The notes beneath the pieces are model-generated. The model made no database searches. It saw nothing but the letters and a program-made list of their open reading frames with translations, and had not been told where the DNA came from. Positions 19,538 to 30,477 of a DNA stretch of 64,000 nucleotides are shown piece by piece. The position numbers and the translations under genes were made by a program. The DNA lies in the NCBI RefSeq assembly GCF_002224485.1, contig NZ_CP022463.1, forward strand, positions 3,020,205 to 3,084,204, in the 5' to 3' direction. The stretch comes from Sinomonas sp. R1AF57. Its GTDB lineage: Bacteria; Actinomycetota; Actinomycetes; Actinomycetales; Micrococcaceae. Every line of letters starts with the position of its first letter. Position 1 is the stretch's first letter.

Positions 19538-20296
19538 ATGACGACGGGGGTGCCGTTTGCCGGAAACGGGCAGGTCCATGGGCTGCTCGTGGGCCTCGGC
19601 GTGGCGGCGGCGCTCCTGTTCTACGCCCTCGAGAAGCGGCGCCGCGGCATGACCGACCCCCGGGTGTGGGCCCTGGCCGGGTTCGCCATCTCGTTCGGAG
19701 CCATCGGGGCGCGCCTCCTCACGTGGAACTTCGTCCGCCAGCCCTCCCTCGAGGAGTGGTGGATCGACGGCGACCGGAGCATCCTCGCCGGCCTCGTCGG
19801 GGCATGGCTCGGCGTGCATCTGGGGAAGCGGCTGCTCGGGTACCGGGGTTCCACGGGCGACCTGTTCGCGCCCGCCGTCGCGCTCTCGATGGCGATCGGC
19901 CGCGTCGGCTGCCTGCTCACGGAACTCCCCGGGACCCCGACCGGCGGCGACTGGGGGATCGTGCTCACGCCGGAGCAGGCCGCGATGTTCGGGGCGCAGG
20001 CCGGGGTCGGCCTGCACCCCTCGTTCGTGTACGAGATCGCGTTCCACGCGGCGGCGTTCCTCTTGATGTGGCGATTCCGCGACCGCCTAGCCCGTGCCGG
20101 GGACCTCTTCATCCTCTACGTGAGCGCTTACGCCCTCTTCCGGTTCGCCGTGGAGTTCGTCCGCGGCAACTCGATCCTCTGGCTGGGCCTGAGCGGCCCC
20201 CAGTGGTTCCTCCTGGTGATGCTCCCACTGCTCATGTGGCGGGTGTGGAAGGTCTTCGCGGCCCTGCGCCGCGCGCCCGCAGGGCAGGCGGCGTGA
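19538..20296 (+). CDS. Lgt-like (prolipoprotein diacylglyceryl transferase family) membrane protein, atypical
   Basis: A 252-aa protein with about seven membrane segments. SMAIGRVGC, GLHPSFVYEI and FRFAVEFVRGN align with Lgt signature regions, so phospholipid binding and transfer are plausible. The central loop where Lgt has His-Gly-Gly reads RSILAGLVG, so the catalytic-type His is absent, and the IGRIGN Asn is Cys. It may therefore not be a functional lipoprotein transferase. It opens a chain of overlapping genes leading to a radical SAM enzyme; the next gene begins in its stop codon (GTGA). A modified lipid or lipid-anchored product is an inference. Confidence 0.8.
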   Translation: MTTGVPFAGNGQVHGLLVGLGVAAALLFYALEKRRRGMTDPRVWALAGFAISFGAIGARLLTWNFVRQPSLEEWWIDGDRSILAGLVGAWLGVHLGKRLLGYRGSTGDLFAPAVALSMAIGRVGCLLTELPGTPTGGDWGIVLTPEQAAMFGAQAGVGLHPSFVYEIAFHAAAFLLMWRFRDRLARAGDLFILYVSAYALFRFAVEFVRGNSILWLGLSGPQWFLLVMLPLLMWRVWKVFAALRRAPAGQAA

Positions 20297-20646
20297 GCGG
20301 GACGTCCGGGCCTGCGGGGCCTGCGGAGCCCGCGGAGCCCGCAGGGCCCGGGCCCGAGAAGCGGGACCGGGGCGGCTTCCTCCCCATCGGCCTGGCGGTC
20401 GGCCTCGCATTCCTCTACCTCGTGGGCATCGTCTATATCGCACCCCGGGCGATTCCCCGGCAGAACTCCATTGCGCCGCTAACGGAGAACGTGCTCCTCT
20501 GGGCGCCCCTCGTGCTGTACGCGGTCGTCGCGGTCGTGCTGACGCTGGTGCGGCGGACGTCGATGACAGGGGCGGGACTGCTCATCGCCCTCGGCGTCTG
20601 GCTCCTGCTCGGAGGCGAGCTGTGCATCTCGGCGATGGTTGCGTGA
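20293..20646 (+). CDS. Small membrane protein with GxGLLI...C C-terminal signature (paralogue A)
   Basis: A 117-aa protein starting at a GTG overlapping the Lgt-like stop. A Pro/Ala/Glu-rich cytoplasmic N-terminus (about 30 residues) precedes three hydrophobic segments. The last one carries GLLIALGVWLLLGGELC near the end. The same C-terminal signature, GxGLLIxxGxWLxxGxxxC, appears in the proteins at 20969 and 23367, so this is one of three paralogues in the locus. No enzyme motif is seen. The shared terminal Cys in a small-residue context could be a modification or metal site. Confidence 0.7.
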   Translation: MSGTSGPAGPAEPAEPAGPGPEKRDRGGFLPIGLAVGLAFLYLVGIVYIAPRAIPRQNSIAPLTENVLLWAPLVLYAVVAVVLTLVRRTSMTGAGLLIALGVWLLLGGELCISAMVA

Positions 20647-20664
20647 AAGTGGAGGGCAGCCGGT

Positions 20665-20808
20665 ATGAGCGATGAAGAGCCCGCGCGTGACCGACGCGAA
20701 AGGTGGCGGGACGTCTTCCTCGCCGTCTTCGCCACCGTGCTCCTCATCGGCGTCGGTGTCTGGCTGCTCGTCTTCGTGGCCAATACCTGCTTCGGAGGCC
20801 TGGGATAG
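20665..20808 (+). CDS. Very small single-pass membrane protein, 47 aa
   Basis: A 47-aa ORF starting at ATG 20665 after GGAGGG. Charged residues (DEEPARDRRERWRD) are followed by one hydrophobic span and the ending NTCFGGLG. It sits 18 nt after the previous gene and 2 nt before the next, in a run of co-directional coupled genes, which supports its being real. The terminal Cys-x-Gly-Gly-Leu recurs in the next gene's protein (CIGGLAGG). It could be a subunit of a membrane complex or the substrate of a neighbouring enzyme; neither is shown. Confidence 0.6.
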   Translation: MSDEEPARDRRERWRDVFLAVFATVLLIGVGVWLLVFVANTCFGGLG

Positions 20809-20810
20809 CC

Positions 20811-20972
20811 ATGGAACCGGACGAGACTCGAGACCCCGGGGAGGACCGGGGAACGTCCCACGAGGAGGACAGGCCCCCCAGGGAGTTCGTCGGCGCACTC
20901 TTCGCTCTGGGAGCGTTCCTCGGCGGCGGCCCCTGCATTGGCGGTCTGGCCGGCGGAGGAGTCCTCGCATGA
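20811..20972 (+). CDS. Small Gly-rich peptide, 53 aa, acidic leader
   Basis: A 53-aa ORF starting at ATG 20811. The first 25 residues are Asp/Glu/Arg-rich, then REFVGALFALGAFLGGG leads into PCIGGLAGGGVLA. The acidic leader plus short Gly-rich, single-Cys tail next to a radical SAM gene is the shape of a RiPP precursor, though a small membrane subunit is equally possible. Its stop overlaps the next start (ATGA), so it belongs to the translated chain. Confidence 0.58.
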   Translation: MEPDETRDPGEDRGTSHEEDRPPREFVGALFALGAFLGGGPCIGGLAGGGVLA

Positions 20973-21313
20973 ACCGCGATCAGGAGCCCCGGGGCTTCAG
21001 CGGCGCCGCCCTCACGGCCGGCCTCTTCGGCGGTGCCCTCGTCCTAACGGCCGTCTACATCGTCCTCCTCGTCGGCCATGACCCCGTAAGCCAGGGAGGC
21101 GCTGGGCTGGGCCCCTCGCTCCTGCCCCTCGTCCTCTACCTTCTCGCCGCGTCGGCCCTCACATGGAACGAGGGAAGCCGCAGCTTCGGAGTCGGGCTGC
21201 TGATCAGCGTCGGTCTCTGGCTGCTGTTCGGCGGCGGGATCTGCATCGCCGGACTGTCCCGGGCCCCCTCGAATGCCGCAGCCTTCGCCTCACCCACAGG
21301 AGGAATCGCATGA
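20969..21313 (+). CDS. Small membrane protein with GxGLLI...C signature (paralogue B)
   Basis: A 114-aa protein with three hydrophobic segments, starting in the stop of the 53-aa gene. The third carries GVGLLISVGLWLLFGGGIC followed by IAGLSRAP and a flexible Ala/Ser tail. It shares its C-terminal signature and preceding LVLYLL segment with the proteins at 20293 and 23367. It overlaps the radical SAM gene by 4 nt, so stoichiometric expression with that enzyme is likely. No known domain is recognised. Confidence 0.7.
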   Translation: MNRDQEPRGFSGAALTAGLFGGALVLTAVYIVLLVGHDPVSQGGAGLGPSLLPLVLYLLAASALTWNEGSRSFGVGLLISVGLWLLFGGGICIAGLSRAPSNAAAFASPTGGIA

Positions 21314-22947
21314 AGACCTCAACCACCCGCCGGGCGCCCCTCGGGCCGGGCCAGCCGCTGCGCGGCGACCGGATCCACCGGTACGTCACCGCATTCTGTC
21401 CCGAGTGCCACAAGGAGAACCCGCCGCTCGCGCAGGTGAGGCGGCTCTCGGGGGCGCTGCTCGTGCGGGACGGACGGGTGTGGCTCGAGCGAGGGTGCCC
21501 CGACCATGGGCTCGTCCGGACCATGTACGACGAGTCCCCCGAGATCCTTGCCTACCTCGAGAAGTGGCAGGCGCCCACCAAGCAGCACGTGCCCGACGCC
21601 GTCGGCAACTACCGGCCCATCCCCGAGGCCTACGCCTACGGGCTCCCGGCCATGCAGACGCAGCACACGTGCATCCTGCTCCAGGACGTGATCGAGCACT
21701 GCAACCTGCGCTGCCCCACGTGCTTCACCGCGTCAGGGCCGAAGCTGCAGGGCGTTGCGCCGCTGGCGGAGGTGCTCGCCAACGTCGACACGCGGCTGTC
21801 GCGCGAGAACGGCCGGATCGACGTCCTCATGCTCTCTGGGGGCGAGCCCACGCTCTACCCGTATCTGGGAGAGCTGCTCGAGGAGCTGGCGGCCCGGCCG
21901 ATTGTGCGGATCATGGTCAACAGCAACGGCCTGCTCATCGCCACCGACGACGGCCTCCTCGAGACTCTCACGAAGCACCGCGAGCGGGTCGAGGTCTACC
22001 TCCAGTACGACGGGCCGTCCAAGGAGTCCTCCGTGTACCACCGCGGCGGGGACCTCACACGGTTCAAGGACCTCGCCATCTCGCGCCTCTCCGAGGCCGG
22101 CGTCTTCACGACCCTCACCATGACCGCGACCCTCGGAGTGAACGACGGCGAGATCGGCGACGTCGTGATGCGGGCCCTCGACACCCCGTACATGGGCGGC
22201 GTCGCGCTCCAGCCGGTCTTCGGCTCCGGCCGCGGCCATGGCATCGACGCCATGGACCGGCTCACCCACGGCGGCGTCCTGGCCCGGCTCGAGGAACAGA
22301 CCGGCGGCGTCGTCTCGTGGCACGACCTCACCGCACTCCCCTGCTCCCACCCGCACTGCGCGTCGGTGGGCTACATGCTCAAGGACGACTCCGGCGTCTG
22401 GCGCTCCCTCGCCCAGCTCATCGGCCACGACCGGCTGCTCACCTGGCTCCAGCTCGACCCGGACTCCCTCGCGAACCGGATCGCTGACAGCGCCCTGCCG
22501 CTGGGCATGCGCTCCATCATGAAGTCCTCCCTGCTGGACCTCCTGAGCGAACAGTCCTCCCTCTCCCACCCCAGCACCGCCGAGCTCTGGAAGAACATCT
22601 GCACCCAGTGCGACCTCGGCATCGGCACCCTCTCGACCCTCGCCATGGGATCCCTGCCGGGCCAGTACCAGCGGCTGCGGAAGCTGCTCGCCGAGCGCGT
22701 CACACGCATCACCGTCAAGCCGTTCATGGACATCTCGACCATGATCGAGGAGCGGCTCATGCAGTGCTGCGTCCATGTGGGCACCAAGTCCGAGGACGAC
22801 GCCCACCAGTGCGCCCCCTTCTGCGCCGTTCAGGCCTGGCCGCAGCTCGCCCGCCAGCGAATGAGCACCGCGACCGGCGCCGCCCTGCCGGAAGGCCACC
22901 GCCGCGAGCCGGTCGCGGTGACGCTGGGGTCGCGGGGGTCGCTGTGA
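21310..22947 (+). CDS. Radical SAM protein with extra Cys clusters (MJ0619/tetraether-synthase-like)
   Basis: A 545-aa radical SAM enzyme. The SAM cluster motif is CNLRCPTC (Cys131, Cys135, Cys138), followed by LSGGEPTLYP. An N-terminal CPEC (30-33) and GCPDHG (Cys63) form a rubredoxin-like site. Further cysteines occur in CSHPHC, CTQCDLG, and CCVHV...CAPFC, suggesting auxiliary clusters. This layout matches MJ0619-type proteins, whose archaeal member Tes joins lipid chains by radical C-C bonds. With an Lgt-like protein upstream, action on a lipid or lipidated substrate is attractive but inferred; peptide modification is the alternative. It overlaps genes on both sides. Confidence 0.85.
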   Translation: MKTSTTRRAPLGPGQPLRGDRIHRYVTAFCPECHKENPPLAQVRRLSGALLVRDGRVWLERGCPDHGLVRTMYDESPEILAYLEKWQAPTKQHVPDAVGNYRPIPEAYAYGLPAMQTQHTCILLQDVIEHCNLRCPTCFTASGPKLQGVAPLAEVLANVDTRLSRENGRIDVLMLSGGEPTLYPYLGELLEELAARPIVRIMVNSNGLLIATDDGLLETLTKHRERVEVYLQYDGPSKESSVYHRGGDLTRFKDLAISRLSEAGVFTTLTMTATLGVNDGEIGDVVMRALDTPYMGGVALQPVFGSGRGHGIDAMDRLTHGGVLARLEEQTGGVVSWHDLTALPCSHPHCASVGYMLKDDSGVWRSLAQLIGHDRLLTWLQLDPDSLANRIADSALPLGMRSIMKSSLLDLLSEQSSLSHPSTAELWKNICTQCDLGIGTLSTLAMGSLPGQYQRLRKLLAERVTRITVKPFMDISTMIEERLMQCCVHVGTKSEDDAHQCAPFCAVQAWPQLARQRMSTATGAALPEGHRREPVAVTLGSRGSL

Positions 22948-23324
22948 GCAGCGAAGAGGACGCCCGGCGCATCGCTGCCGGCCCGCCTCCCTCCGAGCTG
23001 GTGGGCACGGCGCACGACGACGGGCCGCACCTGGGCGAGCAGCCGCCGTCGTCCGTCTCCGGATCGCAGGCGACGGCGCCGTACGACCCGCTGCGGCTGT
23101 GCATCTTCGCGACCATCGCGCTGCTGGGCTGGCTCGCGGGGCCCGTGGCGCTCGTGGTGTTCGCGGGCGTCGGGTTCGCCGGGTACTGGAAGGCGCGCCG
23201 CGCGGGACTCACCCGCTCCAAGTGCTACCTGCGGGACACGCGGCTCGTCCTCGCCTACCTCGCGGCGCTGACGGCGGCGGGGCTGTGGGGCATCTACTCG
23301 CTCGTGGCTGGTGTGGGACGCTGA
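22944..23324 (+). CDS. Small two-TM membrane protein in the radical SAM locus
   Basis: A 126-aa protein starting with GTG in the radical SAM stop (GTGA). About 45 hydrophilic residues are followed by DPLRLCIFATIALLGWLAG, a Gly-rich hairpin, a basic loop (KARRAGLTRSKCYLRDTR) and a final span ending SLVAGVGR. The ending AGVGR also terminates the protein at 23367, suggesting relatedness. No enzyme motif is present. The overlap indicates co-translation with the radical SAM enzyme. Confidence 0.7.
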   Translation: MSSEEDARRIAAGPPPSELVGTAHDDGPHLGEQPPSSVSGSQATAPYDPLRLCIFATIALLGWLAGPVALVVFAGVGFAGYWKARRAGLTRSKCYLRDTRLVLAYLAALTAAGLWGIYSLVAGVGR

Positions 23325-23366
23325 CTCTGGCCGAATCGTTCGGCAGAGCTGACAAGGGGGAACGCC

Positions 23367-23732
23367 GTGAGCCAAGGACCGCCGCAGTACCCGCCGCCGG
23401 GCTCCTGGCCGCCGCCGGAGCAGTGGCCCCAGCGGCCCCCGGGGCCTCCGCCGAGGCCGCCGGGAGGTGGCTCCATGGTCCTCGGGCTCGTGGTGGGGAT
23501 CCTGGTGCTCGGCGGCCTCGGCTGGCTGACCTTCTACACGGCCGCGACCTCGATCCCGGTCGTGAGCGTGGTGGCTCCCTGGCTCATCCCGGCCTACCTC
23601 GTGGCCGCCGTGACGCTGGCCCTGATCCGGACGACCACCCGGTTCGGCTCGGGCCTGCTCATCGCGATCGGCGCATGGTTGGTCATCGGGGCGGGCCTGT
23701 GCGTGGCGCTCATCGCCGGAGTGGGGCGCTGA
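23367..23732 (+). CDS. Pro-rich small membrane protein with GxGLLI...C signature (paralogue C)
   Basis: A 121-aa protein starting at GTG 23367 after AAGGGGG. The first 35 residues are Pro/Gly-rich (PPPGSWPPPEQWPQRPP). Three membrane segments follow, the last with GSGLLIAIGAWLVIGAGLC and the end ALIAGVGR. The C-terminal signature matches the proteins at 20293 and 20969. It is the last gene of the locus, 42 nt after the preceding one. The Pro-rich N-terminus may mediate protein contacts. Confidence 0.7.
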   Translation: MSQGPPQYPPPGSWPPPEQWPQRPPGPPPRPPGGGSMVLGLVVGILVLGGLGWLTFYTAATSIPVVSVVAPWLIPAYLVAAVTLALIRTTTRFGSGLLIAIGAWLVIGAGLCVALIAGVGR

Positions 23733-29392: not shown

Positions 29393-30166
29393 ATGAGCAC
29401 CATCCAGCGCACTGCAGTCCTCACCGGCGCCACGTCCGAGAGGGGGATCGGCCTCACCACTGCGCGCCGCTACGCCCGCGAGGGCTGGGCCGTCGTCATC
29501 CTGGACCTCGACGGCGAGAAGTCCGCGAAGACCGCTCAGGACATCGCCAACGAGTTCAACGTCCCGGCGTTCGGGCACCAGGTCGATGTCGCCGACGAGG
29601 CCTCGGTCGCCGCGGCCGCCGACACCGTCGCCGCCGAGGTCGCCGCCGGCCGCCTGCCCGTGGTCGGCGCGCTCGCCAACATCGCCGGCATCACCTCCCC
29701 CGTGCCGTTCCTCGAGACGGACCTCGCCCTGTGGAACAAGGTCATGGCCGTGAATGCCACCGGCACCTACCTCGTGACCAAGGCCTTCCTCCCGGCCATG
29801 ATCGAGGCCGGCTGGGGCCGCATCGTCAACATGTCCTCCGTGTCCGCCCAGCGCGGCGGCGGCGTGTTCGGCAAGGTCCCCTACTCCGCCGCGAAGGCCG
29901 CCATCCTCGGCTTCACCAAGGCGCTCGCCCGCGAGATCGCCCCGACCGGCGTCACCGTCAACGCCATCACGCCCGGCGCCGTGGACACCAACATCCGCGT
30001 CGGCAGCACGGACGAGCAGGAGGCCGCCATCAACGCGGGCATCCCGATCGGCCGCAACGCCACCACCGAAGAGGTCGCGGCCCTGTTCACCTTCCTGTCC
30101 TCCGAGGACGCCGCGTACCTCACCGGCACGACGATGGACATCAACGGCGGCAGCCACATCCACTGA
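29393..30166 (+). CDS. SDR dehydrogenase, candidate tetritol (threitol/erythritol) dehydrogenase
   Basis: A 257-aa classical SDR. TGATSERGIGLT near the N-terminus is a glycine loop with a two-residue insertion, also seen in FabG-like polyol dehydrogenases. NIAG, NMSSVSAQRGGG, YSAAKAA and the ending DINGGSHIH are present. AAAGGAA precedes the ATG. Located between a sugar-phosphate isomerase and an erythrulose-type kinase gene, it fits oxidation of a tetritol to erythrulose. The exact stereochemistry cannot be read from sequence. Confidence 0.83.
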   Translation: MSTIQRTAVLTGATSERGIGLTTARRYAREGWAVVILDLDGEKSAKTAQDIANEFNVPAFGHQVDVADEASVAAAADTVAAEVAAGRLPVVGALANIAGITSPVPFLETDLALWNKVMAVNATGTYLVTKAFLPAMIEAGWGRIVNMSSVSAQRGGGVFGKVPYSAAKAAILGFTKALAREIAPTGVTVNAITPGAVDTNIRVGSTDEQEAAINAGIPIGRNATTEEVAALFTFLSSEDAAYLTGTTMDINGGSHIH

Positions 30167-30190
30167 CCACGGCAGCCGGGCGGCGCAACG

Positions 30191-30477
30191 GCGGTTGAGC
30201 GGAGCGAAGCGGAGTCGAAACCTGCTCCAGCCGGGCGGCGCAACGGCGGTTGAGCGGAGCGAAGCGGAGTCGAAACCTGCTCCTCCCGGTCGACGCAGCG
30301 GCGGTTGAGCGGAGCGAAGCGGAGTCGAAACCTGCTCCTCCCGGTCGGCACAGCGGCGGTTGAGCGGAGCGAAGCGGAATCGAAACCTGCTCCTCCCCGT
30401 CGCCACAACGGCGGTTGAGCGTAGCGAAGCGGAGTCGAAACCTGCTGTCGGCACCCCGGCTTCGACTCCGCTCAACC
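30191..30477. repeat. Five tandem 55-bp repeats with a terminal inverted copy
   Basis: GCGGTTGAGCGGAGCGAAGC begins at 30191, 30246, 30301, 30356 and 30411, an exact 55-bp period. Each unit continues with GGAGTCGAAACCTGCT and a variable 10-15 nt. The fifth copy has one change (GCGTAGC). An inverted partial copy, CTTCGACTCCGCTCAACC, closes the array at 30460-30477. The array fills most of the 351-nt gap between the SDR and kinase genes (30167-30517), which holds no other gene. Each unit can form a small hairpin. Confidence 0.85.

Follow-up and report, generated by a model that had tools for sequence, protein, structure and literature searches.

A stretch of 64,000 nucleotides from the genome of Sinomonas sp. 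R1AF57 (3.94 Mb, a single contig), hereafter the window, carries at positions 19538-23732 a cassette of eight genes which encodes a radical S-adenosylmethionine (SAM) enzyme, an Lgt-like membrane protein, a further conserved membrane protein and several small membrane proteins, most with a cysteine in a C-terminal G-x-C context (GxC proteins). The locus is real and conserved, and the linkage of its genes is above chance. Probably, if only by a modest degree, this dedicated cassette S-lipidates the GxC membrane proteins, with the radical enzyme modifying the donor lipid or the lipid already attached.

All eight open reading frames (ORFs; g1 to g8, Table 1) lie on the plus strand, are free of internal stops and fill the span, in agreement with an earlier note on the window which had described eight genes in one direction; the five 4-nt overlaps given there are to be corrected to four (g1/g2, g4/g5, g5/g6 and g6/g7), the remaining junctions having spacings of +18, +2 and +42 nt. 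GC content at third codon positions (GC3) ranges from 76 to 95% with its minimum in g4, where it does not exceed GC content at first codon positions; with no homologue detected in other loci by phmmer and the weakest codon signal, g4 is the least certain gene of the eight. For g3, phmmer likewise found no homologue in the other loci; a mini ORF of 49 aa like g3 is present in another Sinomonas (L184, 4811-4960). Promoter and terminator scans returned nothing.

Conservation and co-inheritance of the cassette

A scan of species genomes yielded 362 stretches encoding relatives of g6, the radical SAM enzyme; the 80 best loci among them (67-92% identity), all from actinobacteria, were kept. The Lgt-like gene adjoins the enzyme gene on the same strand in 79 of these 80, the sole miss (L032) coinciding with a contig end, and g7, the third partner, does so in 77, with one miss (L069) likewise cut by a contig end and two (L074 and L095) not. 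As the Lgt-like gene comes first in 54 loci and last in 25, the linkage has outlived rearrangement of the gene order. Beyond the cassette genes themselves, clustering of the genes in these loci found no family in more than 11 of them, the four annotated clusters being RRF (ribosome recycling factor), AA_kinase, CTP_transf_1 and a Radical_SAM protein. Near an RRF gene the cassette is found in 11 loci, ten of which also have a CTP_transf_1 gene (Table 1); ribosome recycling factor is a housekeeping protein and CTP_transf_1 (CDP-diacylglycerol-type) makes lipid precursors, and the position of the cassette there can be chance or meaningful.

Co-inheritance was followed in 197 genomes drawn from the class, 60 genomes of a second genus and 15 Sinomonas genomes. 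The enzyme is present at E < 1e-250 in 15 of the 197 class-sample genomes, and the Lgt-like profile matches the identical 15 at E <= 3e-70, with the next match at 9e-25. A GxC gene stands beside the enzymes in 15/15, those of G211 and G066 being detected only by scanning the fetched locus, the latter via a relaxed search (E 0.1) together with position and a motif recognized by eye. g7 is encoded by 12 of the 15, the three without it belonging to one genus, and its only match outside these genomes is weak (G086, 6e-6). Six other class-sample genomes contain weaker enzyme matches (6e-11 to 7e-59), of which those in G111 and G234 are TrsS-like by scan, while the one in G123 groups with them in the tree described below. 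In the second genus, the Lgt-like protein occurs in 20/60 and the enzyme in 19/60 genomes; 19 of the 20 Lgt-like carriers have the enzyme, and the lone one without it is a 70%-complete assembly. Among the Sinomonas genomes, 8/15 encode the enzyme and the identical eight encode g7. The survey of neighbourhoods across actinobacteria that the earlier note had called for thus finds the neighbours strongly conserved.

On plasmids of Mycobacterium avium and M. branderi the order is Lgt-like gene, two GxC genes and enzyme gene, with transposase genes nearby and no g7 by annotation or profile, so that the Lgt-like, GxC and enzyme genes make up the core of the cassette. In the Mycobacterium plasmid loci L178 and L179 the GxC tail runs on as CTGLNPxxY, and its conserved end is longer than that of most other groups. 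g7 itself, of which 20 members were aligned, has two invariant cysteines and fits no convincing Pfam or NCBIfam family, the weak hits seen being sporadic and confined to a member or two; it is perhaps an anchor or scaffold.

The radical SAM enzyme and the Lgt-like protein

The nearest solved structure to g6, and its top match by sequence and fold, is the tetraether synthase Tes/MJ0619 (7TOL/7TOM), with 21% identity in the fold alignment. The enzyme begins with a zinc-ribbon/rubredoxin-like domain (PF23545), as had been read from the letters before, and the rubredoxin-type site C30-x2-C33...C63-x2-H66 (Tes C9-x2-C12...C33-x2-H36) is kept in 80/80 loci; kept as well is the SAM cluster motif CxxxCxxC at 131/135/138. 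Further cysteine motifs are PCSHPHC (345/350), CxxC (431/434), CC (486/487), C501 and C505. The earlier comparison of such extra clusters with those of MJ0619 holds for the C-terminal part, where C486, C487 and C505 match, in 80/80, C455, C456 and C470 of the Tes C-terminal cluster region. It fails for the N-terminal auxiliary cluster of Tes (C73/C77/C80), at which R102, Y110 and P113 are aligned in g6 and no cysteine is found in the 80 loci. Rubredoxin-type domain, radical SAM core and C-terminal cysteines are therefore common to both enzymes, whereas g6 has additional conserved cysteines (C121, C345, C350, C431, C434 and C501, with C350 aligned to a Tes serine in one alignment and to a Tes cysteine in another), replaces Tes M439 and Y459 by K470 and V490 in 80/80 loci and, unlike Tes, is linked to Lgt-like and GxC genes. 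Although M439 and Y459 are completely conserved in 1000 archaeal Tes homologues, the M439A variant of Tes retains activity and Y459 is dispensable (PMC9433317), and therefore these substitutions alone need not change the chemistry. The predicted model of g6 has a mean predicted local distance difference test score (pLDDT) of 67; no membrane helix or signal is evident by eye.

Among NCBIfam models, g6 scores best with TrsS (NF045646, 176.6 bits, cut-off 490) and Tes (NF045702, 140.8 bits, cut-off 450), far off both cut-offs, and 26/26 members scanned match both at E <= 1e-20, the best E-value for TrsS being the lower. In a tree of 25 rows, to be read with long-branch caveats, 18 cassette enzymes form one clade (100/100) separate from Tes and set apart from six TrsS-like or similar relatives. 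The six TrsS-like relatives share C121, C345 and C350 with g6, but five TrsS-like relatives score 328-340 bits for TrsS compared with 177 bits for g6, five of the six in the tree keep two cysteines of the N-terminal cluster, and TrsS-like enzymes on M. vanbaalenii and Haloarcula plasmids adjoin a DVU_1556-like methyltransferase, not an Lgt relative. Judged by its sequence, g6 is in no subfamily of known function and is not a tetraether synthase; a radical SAM subfamily with a known non-lipid substrate, which the earlier note had named as a possible objection, was not found to fit. We take 'Class D' to be the name of this enzyme group. In the sections of the literature drawn on here, bacterial Tes relatives are without a demonstrated function (PMC9433317, PMC8941075, PMC11868695). 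Synthesis of free tetraethers or diacids was considered as the principal function and rejected, the N-terminal cluster, M439 and Y459 being missing.

A second radical SAM family, about 31% identical, is encoded in cassette-free Sinomonas genomes, twice in G009 and once in G005, with two matches in G001; its representatives L160 (340 bits for TrsS), L161 and L162 (Table 1) have no Lgt-like, g7 or GxC gene by profiles. TrsS-like enzymes in L163 (5768-7932) and L164 (5785-8027) lie directly 3' of a gene for a small NCGCFG membrane protein, which has no NCBIfam match and is perhaps MauE/DoxX-like.

g1 matches PF01790 with 91.4 bits (cut-off 24.9), which upholds its first description as Lgt-like, and reaches 50.7 bits with the NCBIfam equivalog TIGR00544, below the cut-off of 118.9. 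As phmmer against PDB sequences gave nothing at E <= 0.1, g1 was compared with a canonical Lgt and by fold search; 5AZB was the only fold match of the g1 model (pLDDT 86) below E 0.001 (TM-score 0.62). Arg122, Cys125, Glu129, Arg202, Glu206 and Arg209 are invariant in 79/79 loci, and the equivalents of R143, E151, R239, E243 and R246 of Escherichia coli Lgt are among them. The catalytic signature is altered at two other positions: that of N146 is cysteine (C125) in 79/79, and that of Y26 is histidine (H14) in 78 loci with a gap in one, so that the 15 class-sample members read GRxGC compared with GRxGN in seven canonical Lgts. Two further Lgt genes, both canonical, are located elsewhere in the same genome; g1 as a canonical second Lgt was rejected on account of the replaced Y26 and N146 and the missed TIGR00544 cut-off.

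E. coli Lgt has an absolute requirement for Y26 and N146 (PMC13251419), and Y26 touches the donor lipid at its sn-2 ester oxygen (PMC4728403). Exactly the combination Y26H and N146C has been reported for MSMEG_5408, the second Lgt of M. smegmatis, and N146C also for other distant Lgts; in the sections of that source on which we draw, the second mycobacterial Lgt is described only as of presumed low Lgt activity (PMC13251419). MSMEG_5408 might thus be read as a member of such a cassette. Canonical Lgt, MSMEG_5408 and the g1 family have the fold and the five charged residues in common; what distinguishes the g1 family is that both substitutions are invariant and tied to a radical SAM gene, and that its acceptors would be C-terminal GxC helices instead of the N-terminal lipobox signal peptides of Lgt.

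The GxC membrane proteins and their cysteine

The small membrane proteins g2, g3, g4, g5 and g8 had been noticed before, but their shared GxC tail, like the conserved partner g7, had been overlooked. Their last transmembrane helix bears a cysteine near the C-terminus, in G-x-C context in g2, g4, g5 and g8 and as N-T-C in g3, followed by 6 (g2), 5 (g3), 11 (g4), 22 (g5) and 9 (g8) residues. An iterative profile seeded with g2, g5 and g8, cysteine-bearing seeds which bias the cysteine counts, found relatives with a late cysteine in 75/80 loci, with one to three family copies where present; a relaxed scan, combined with position and the motif judged by eye, added L072 (E 0.0012; a long ORF of low GC3), which makes 76/80. 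Of the four loci without a GxC gene, L060, L069 and L073 are cut short, while L054 is intact and a true miss. The late cysteine is present in 91/99 family proteins of the 80 loci, in 91/91 at 5-14 residues from the C-terminus, and the 93 aligned tails show glycine at -2 in 95% and at -16 in 97%, L/A/P/V/I at -1 and only one conserved cysteine. When 42 members of the family were compared with Pfam, one or two of them gave sporadic weak hits and nothing more. A classical lipobox substrate was rejected, with the cysteine near the C-terminus, glycine at -2 and L/A/P/V/I at -1.

Independently of any profile, a cysteine occurs in the last 24 residues of 59/72 small genes with multiple transmembrane helices that lie inside the block or no more than 700 bp from it, compared with 5/48 elsewhere in those loci (Fisher p 2e-15, the loci being related and thus non-independent). 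Lysine or arginine is found 17-27 residues before the cysteine in 93/93 tails, with a mean of 2.34 basic versus 0.16 acidic charges ahead of it and 0.29 basic charges after it; following the positive-inside rule of membrane topology, the tail cysteine is therefore predicted at the outer face of the membrane.

Presence of the cysteine tracks presence of the enzymes. The small-protein profile also matches genomes without the enzyme, from which 8/20 returned loci come; seven of these eight are relatives and lack the cysteine (7/7), the eighth looks unrelated, and the comparison covers the returned loci only, not weaker profile matches. In G004, the one Sinomonas with a small-protein match and no enzyme, tryptophan replaces the cysteine, and G013 has tryptophan and leucine in two copies out of the block, which lie about 0.9 kb upstream and about 5 kb downstream of it. 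Among the cysteine-less members in the 80 loci, that of L023 is of the tryptophan type and precedes the Lgt-like gene by about 0.9 kb, and the seven others are of the type seen in cassette-free genomes. As the seven loci concerned belong to the eleven with the cassette in the RRF housekeeping cluster, the cysteine-less gene may be part of that cluster rather than of the cassette.

Elsewhere in the window, a 55-bp tandem repeat (30176-30446; 4.9 copies, 93% match) is located directly 3' of an ORF ending at 30166.

Table 1. Genes of the cassette in the window and related features in other loci.
Feature	Location	Strand	Description
g1	window 19538..20296	+	Lgt-like membrane protein of 252 aa (PF01790); paralogue in the Lgt family that carries Y26H and N146C
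g2	window 20293..20646	+	small GxC membrane protein, tail LLLGGELCISAMVA; overlaps g1 by 4 nt
g3	window 20665..20808	+	mini protein with one transmembrane helix, 47 aa, tail VANTCFGGLG; GGAGGG 5' of start
g4	window 20811..20972	+	mini protein, 53 aa, tail LGGGPCIGGLAGGGVLA
g5	window 20969..21313	+	small GxC membrane protein, tail LFGGGICIAGLSRAP..., cysteine then 22 residues
g6	window 21310..22947	+	Tes/TrsS-like radical SAM enzyme, 545 aa, rubredoxin-like domain
g7	window 22944..23324	+	conserved membrane protein, third partner; motif DPLRLC...ARRxGLxxSxCxLxDTR
g8	window 23367..23732	+	small GxC membrane protein, proline-rich N-terminus, tail VIGAGLCVALIAGVGR
Second radical SAM family	L160 5493-7244; L161 5460-7394; L162 5916-7727		
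Orphan or out-of-block GxC paralogues	L183 5013-5519; L184 2236-2703 and 12485-12889		tryptophan or leucine for cysteine
Cysteine-less relative at the block	L050, L053, L055, L077, L088, L091, L097		often WWHRDHPTF-like N-terminus
Cassette near RRF and CTP_transf_1	L046, L049, L050, L052, L053, L055, L077, L088, L091, L097		
Cassette near RRF alone	L048		

Proposed function and its alternatives

If the cassette S-lipidates its GxC proteins, these would insert such that the cysteine of their last transmembrane helix comes to lie on the outside of the cytoplasmic membrane, to judge by their charge bias, and the Lgt-like enzyme would move a diacylglyceryl-type group to that cysteine, as its family, its retained arginines and the conservation of the cysteine suggest. 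The radical SAM enzyme, presumed cytosolic, would activate an unreactive C-H bond and so yield a chemically unusual anchor, a chemistry to which the Tes homology and the Y26H exchange in the Lgt-like donor site point. Most likely it would act on an acyl chain of the donor phospholipid prior to transfer, or else on the attached lipid; an order with modification first would agree with the topology, with the kinship to Tes and with the changed residue in the donor site. g7 would probably dock the soluble enzyme to the membrane, which is the least secure step of the scheme. Where the earlier note had left the choice between a membrane lipid and a lipidated peptide, the peptide is favoured by the conserved GxC proteins and by an Lgt relative dedicated to the cassette.

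Several observations weigh against this proposal. As E. coli Lgt needs Y26 and N146, a paralogue without them may not carry out the canonical reaction. The GxC motif is not a classical lipobox, its helix being C-terminal with glycine at -2, and an enzyme without an evident membrane helix could not act on a cysteine end predicted outside once the protein is inserted. The intact locus L054 shows no GxC gene even after the relaxed scan, 8/99 family members in the 80 loci have no cysteine, seven of them at or <=600 bp from the block, and the 5/48 unlinked small membrane genes likewise have a late cysteine. Three genomes of a single genus and two Mycobacterium plasmids are without g7.

Alternatively, the radical enzyme might join or alter phospholipid tails in a free-lipid pathway, in which the Lgt-like and GxC proteins would present the lipid and no protein would be lipidated. 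The nearest solved structure is that of Tes, whose cysteines C455, C456 and C470 are conserved in g6 and whose C-terminal cluster holds a carbon intermediate (PMC9433317), and 10/80 cassettes lie near a gene of CTP_transf_1, a family that includes phosphatidate cytidylyltransferase. However, the N-terminal cluster is absent, M439 and Y459 are exchanged throughout the 80 loci, no family beyond the cassette genes exceeds 11 of them, and the cysteine of the GxC proteins beside the enzymes would be left unexplained. We regard this pathway as unlikely, and free membrane-spanning diacids or tetraethers find no specific support, with Tes features missing and no further widespread family at the loci.

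Rather improbable is a system resembling ribosomally synthesized and post-translationally modified peptides (RiPPs), in which the radical enzyme would cross-link the GxC cysteine in a sactipeptide-like thioether or alter other residues, with the Lgt-like protein as chaperone or exporter. Radical SAM enzymes frequently modify small peptides, and the small genes are precursor-like, in one to three family copies per locus with conserved glycine and cysteine. But SPASM is not among the Pfam matches of the enzyme, its best solved relative acts on lipids, retained catalytic arginines of Lgt are unexpected in a chaperone and the helices are membrane-embedded. That the GxC cysteine binds metal or forms a disulfide while the enzymes serve another membrane function is highly improbable: a lone conserved cysteine can be a ligand or disulfide partner and g7 offers two invariant ones, but the GxC tail has only one and an Lgt-family protein accompanies the enzyme in 79/80 loci and 15/15 genomes.

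S-lipidation of the GxC proteins has a near parallel in the diacylglyceryl RiPPs (DAG-RiPPs), for which a maturation enzyme and diacylglyceryl transfer to a cysteine of a small ribosomal product have likewise been described; these rely on the general lipoprotein pathway with Lgt and signal peptidase II, and combine a lipobox at the N-terminus with an MNIO enzyme (PMC12636315). The cassette instead pairs an Lgt relative of its own with a GxC motif at the C-terminus and a radical SAM enzyme resembling Tes, and would lipidate by the route outlined above. Another near idea in print is a proposed GS-lipobox system with a lipocone enzyme. Protein lipidation and radical maturation, which the cassette would combine, are each known in kind; the combination appears to be undescribed, no account of an Lgt-like protein, GxC proteins and a Tes-like enzyme together being found in the literature searched.

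As a bolder variant, which we hold to be unlikely, the enzyme would form a C-C bond in acyl tails, giving a cross-linked or membrane-spanning lipid which the Lgt relative would attach to the GxC cysteine. If so, a covalent link through both leaflets would hold the GxC proteins in place, and this protein lipid anchor of a new kind would be spread over many actinobacteria and mycobacterial plasmids. With a named cysteine and a named protein, the cassette offers bacterial Tes relatives and the second mycobacterial Lgt a concrete, testable set of partners. Should the GxC proteins be lipidated as proposed, culturable actinobacteria would possess an added route of protein lipidation with its own transferase, acceptor motif and radical step.

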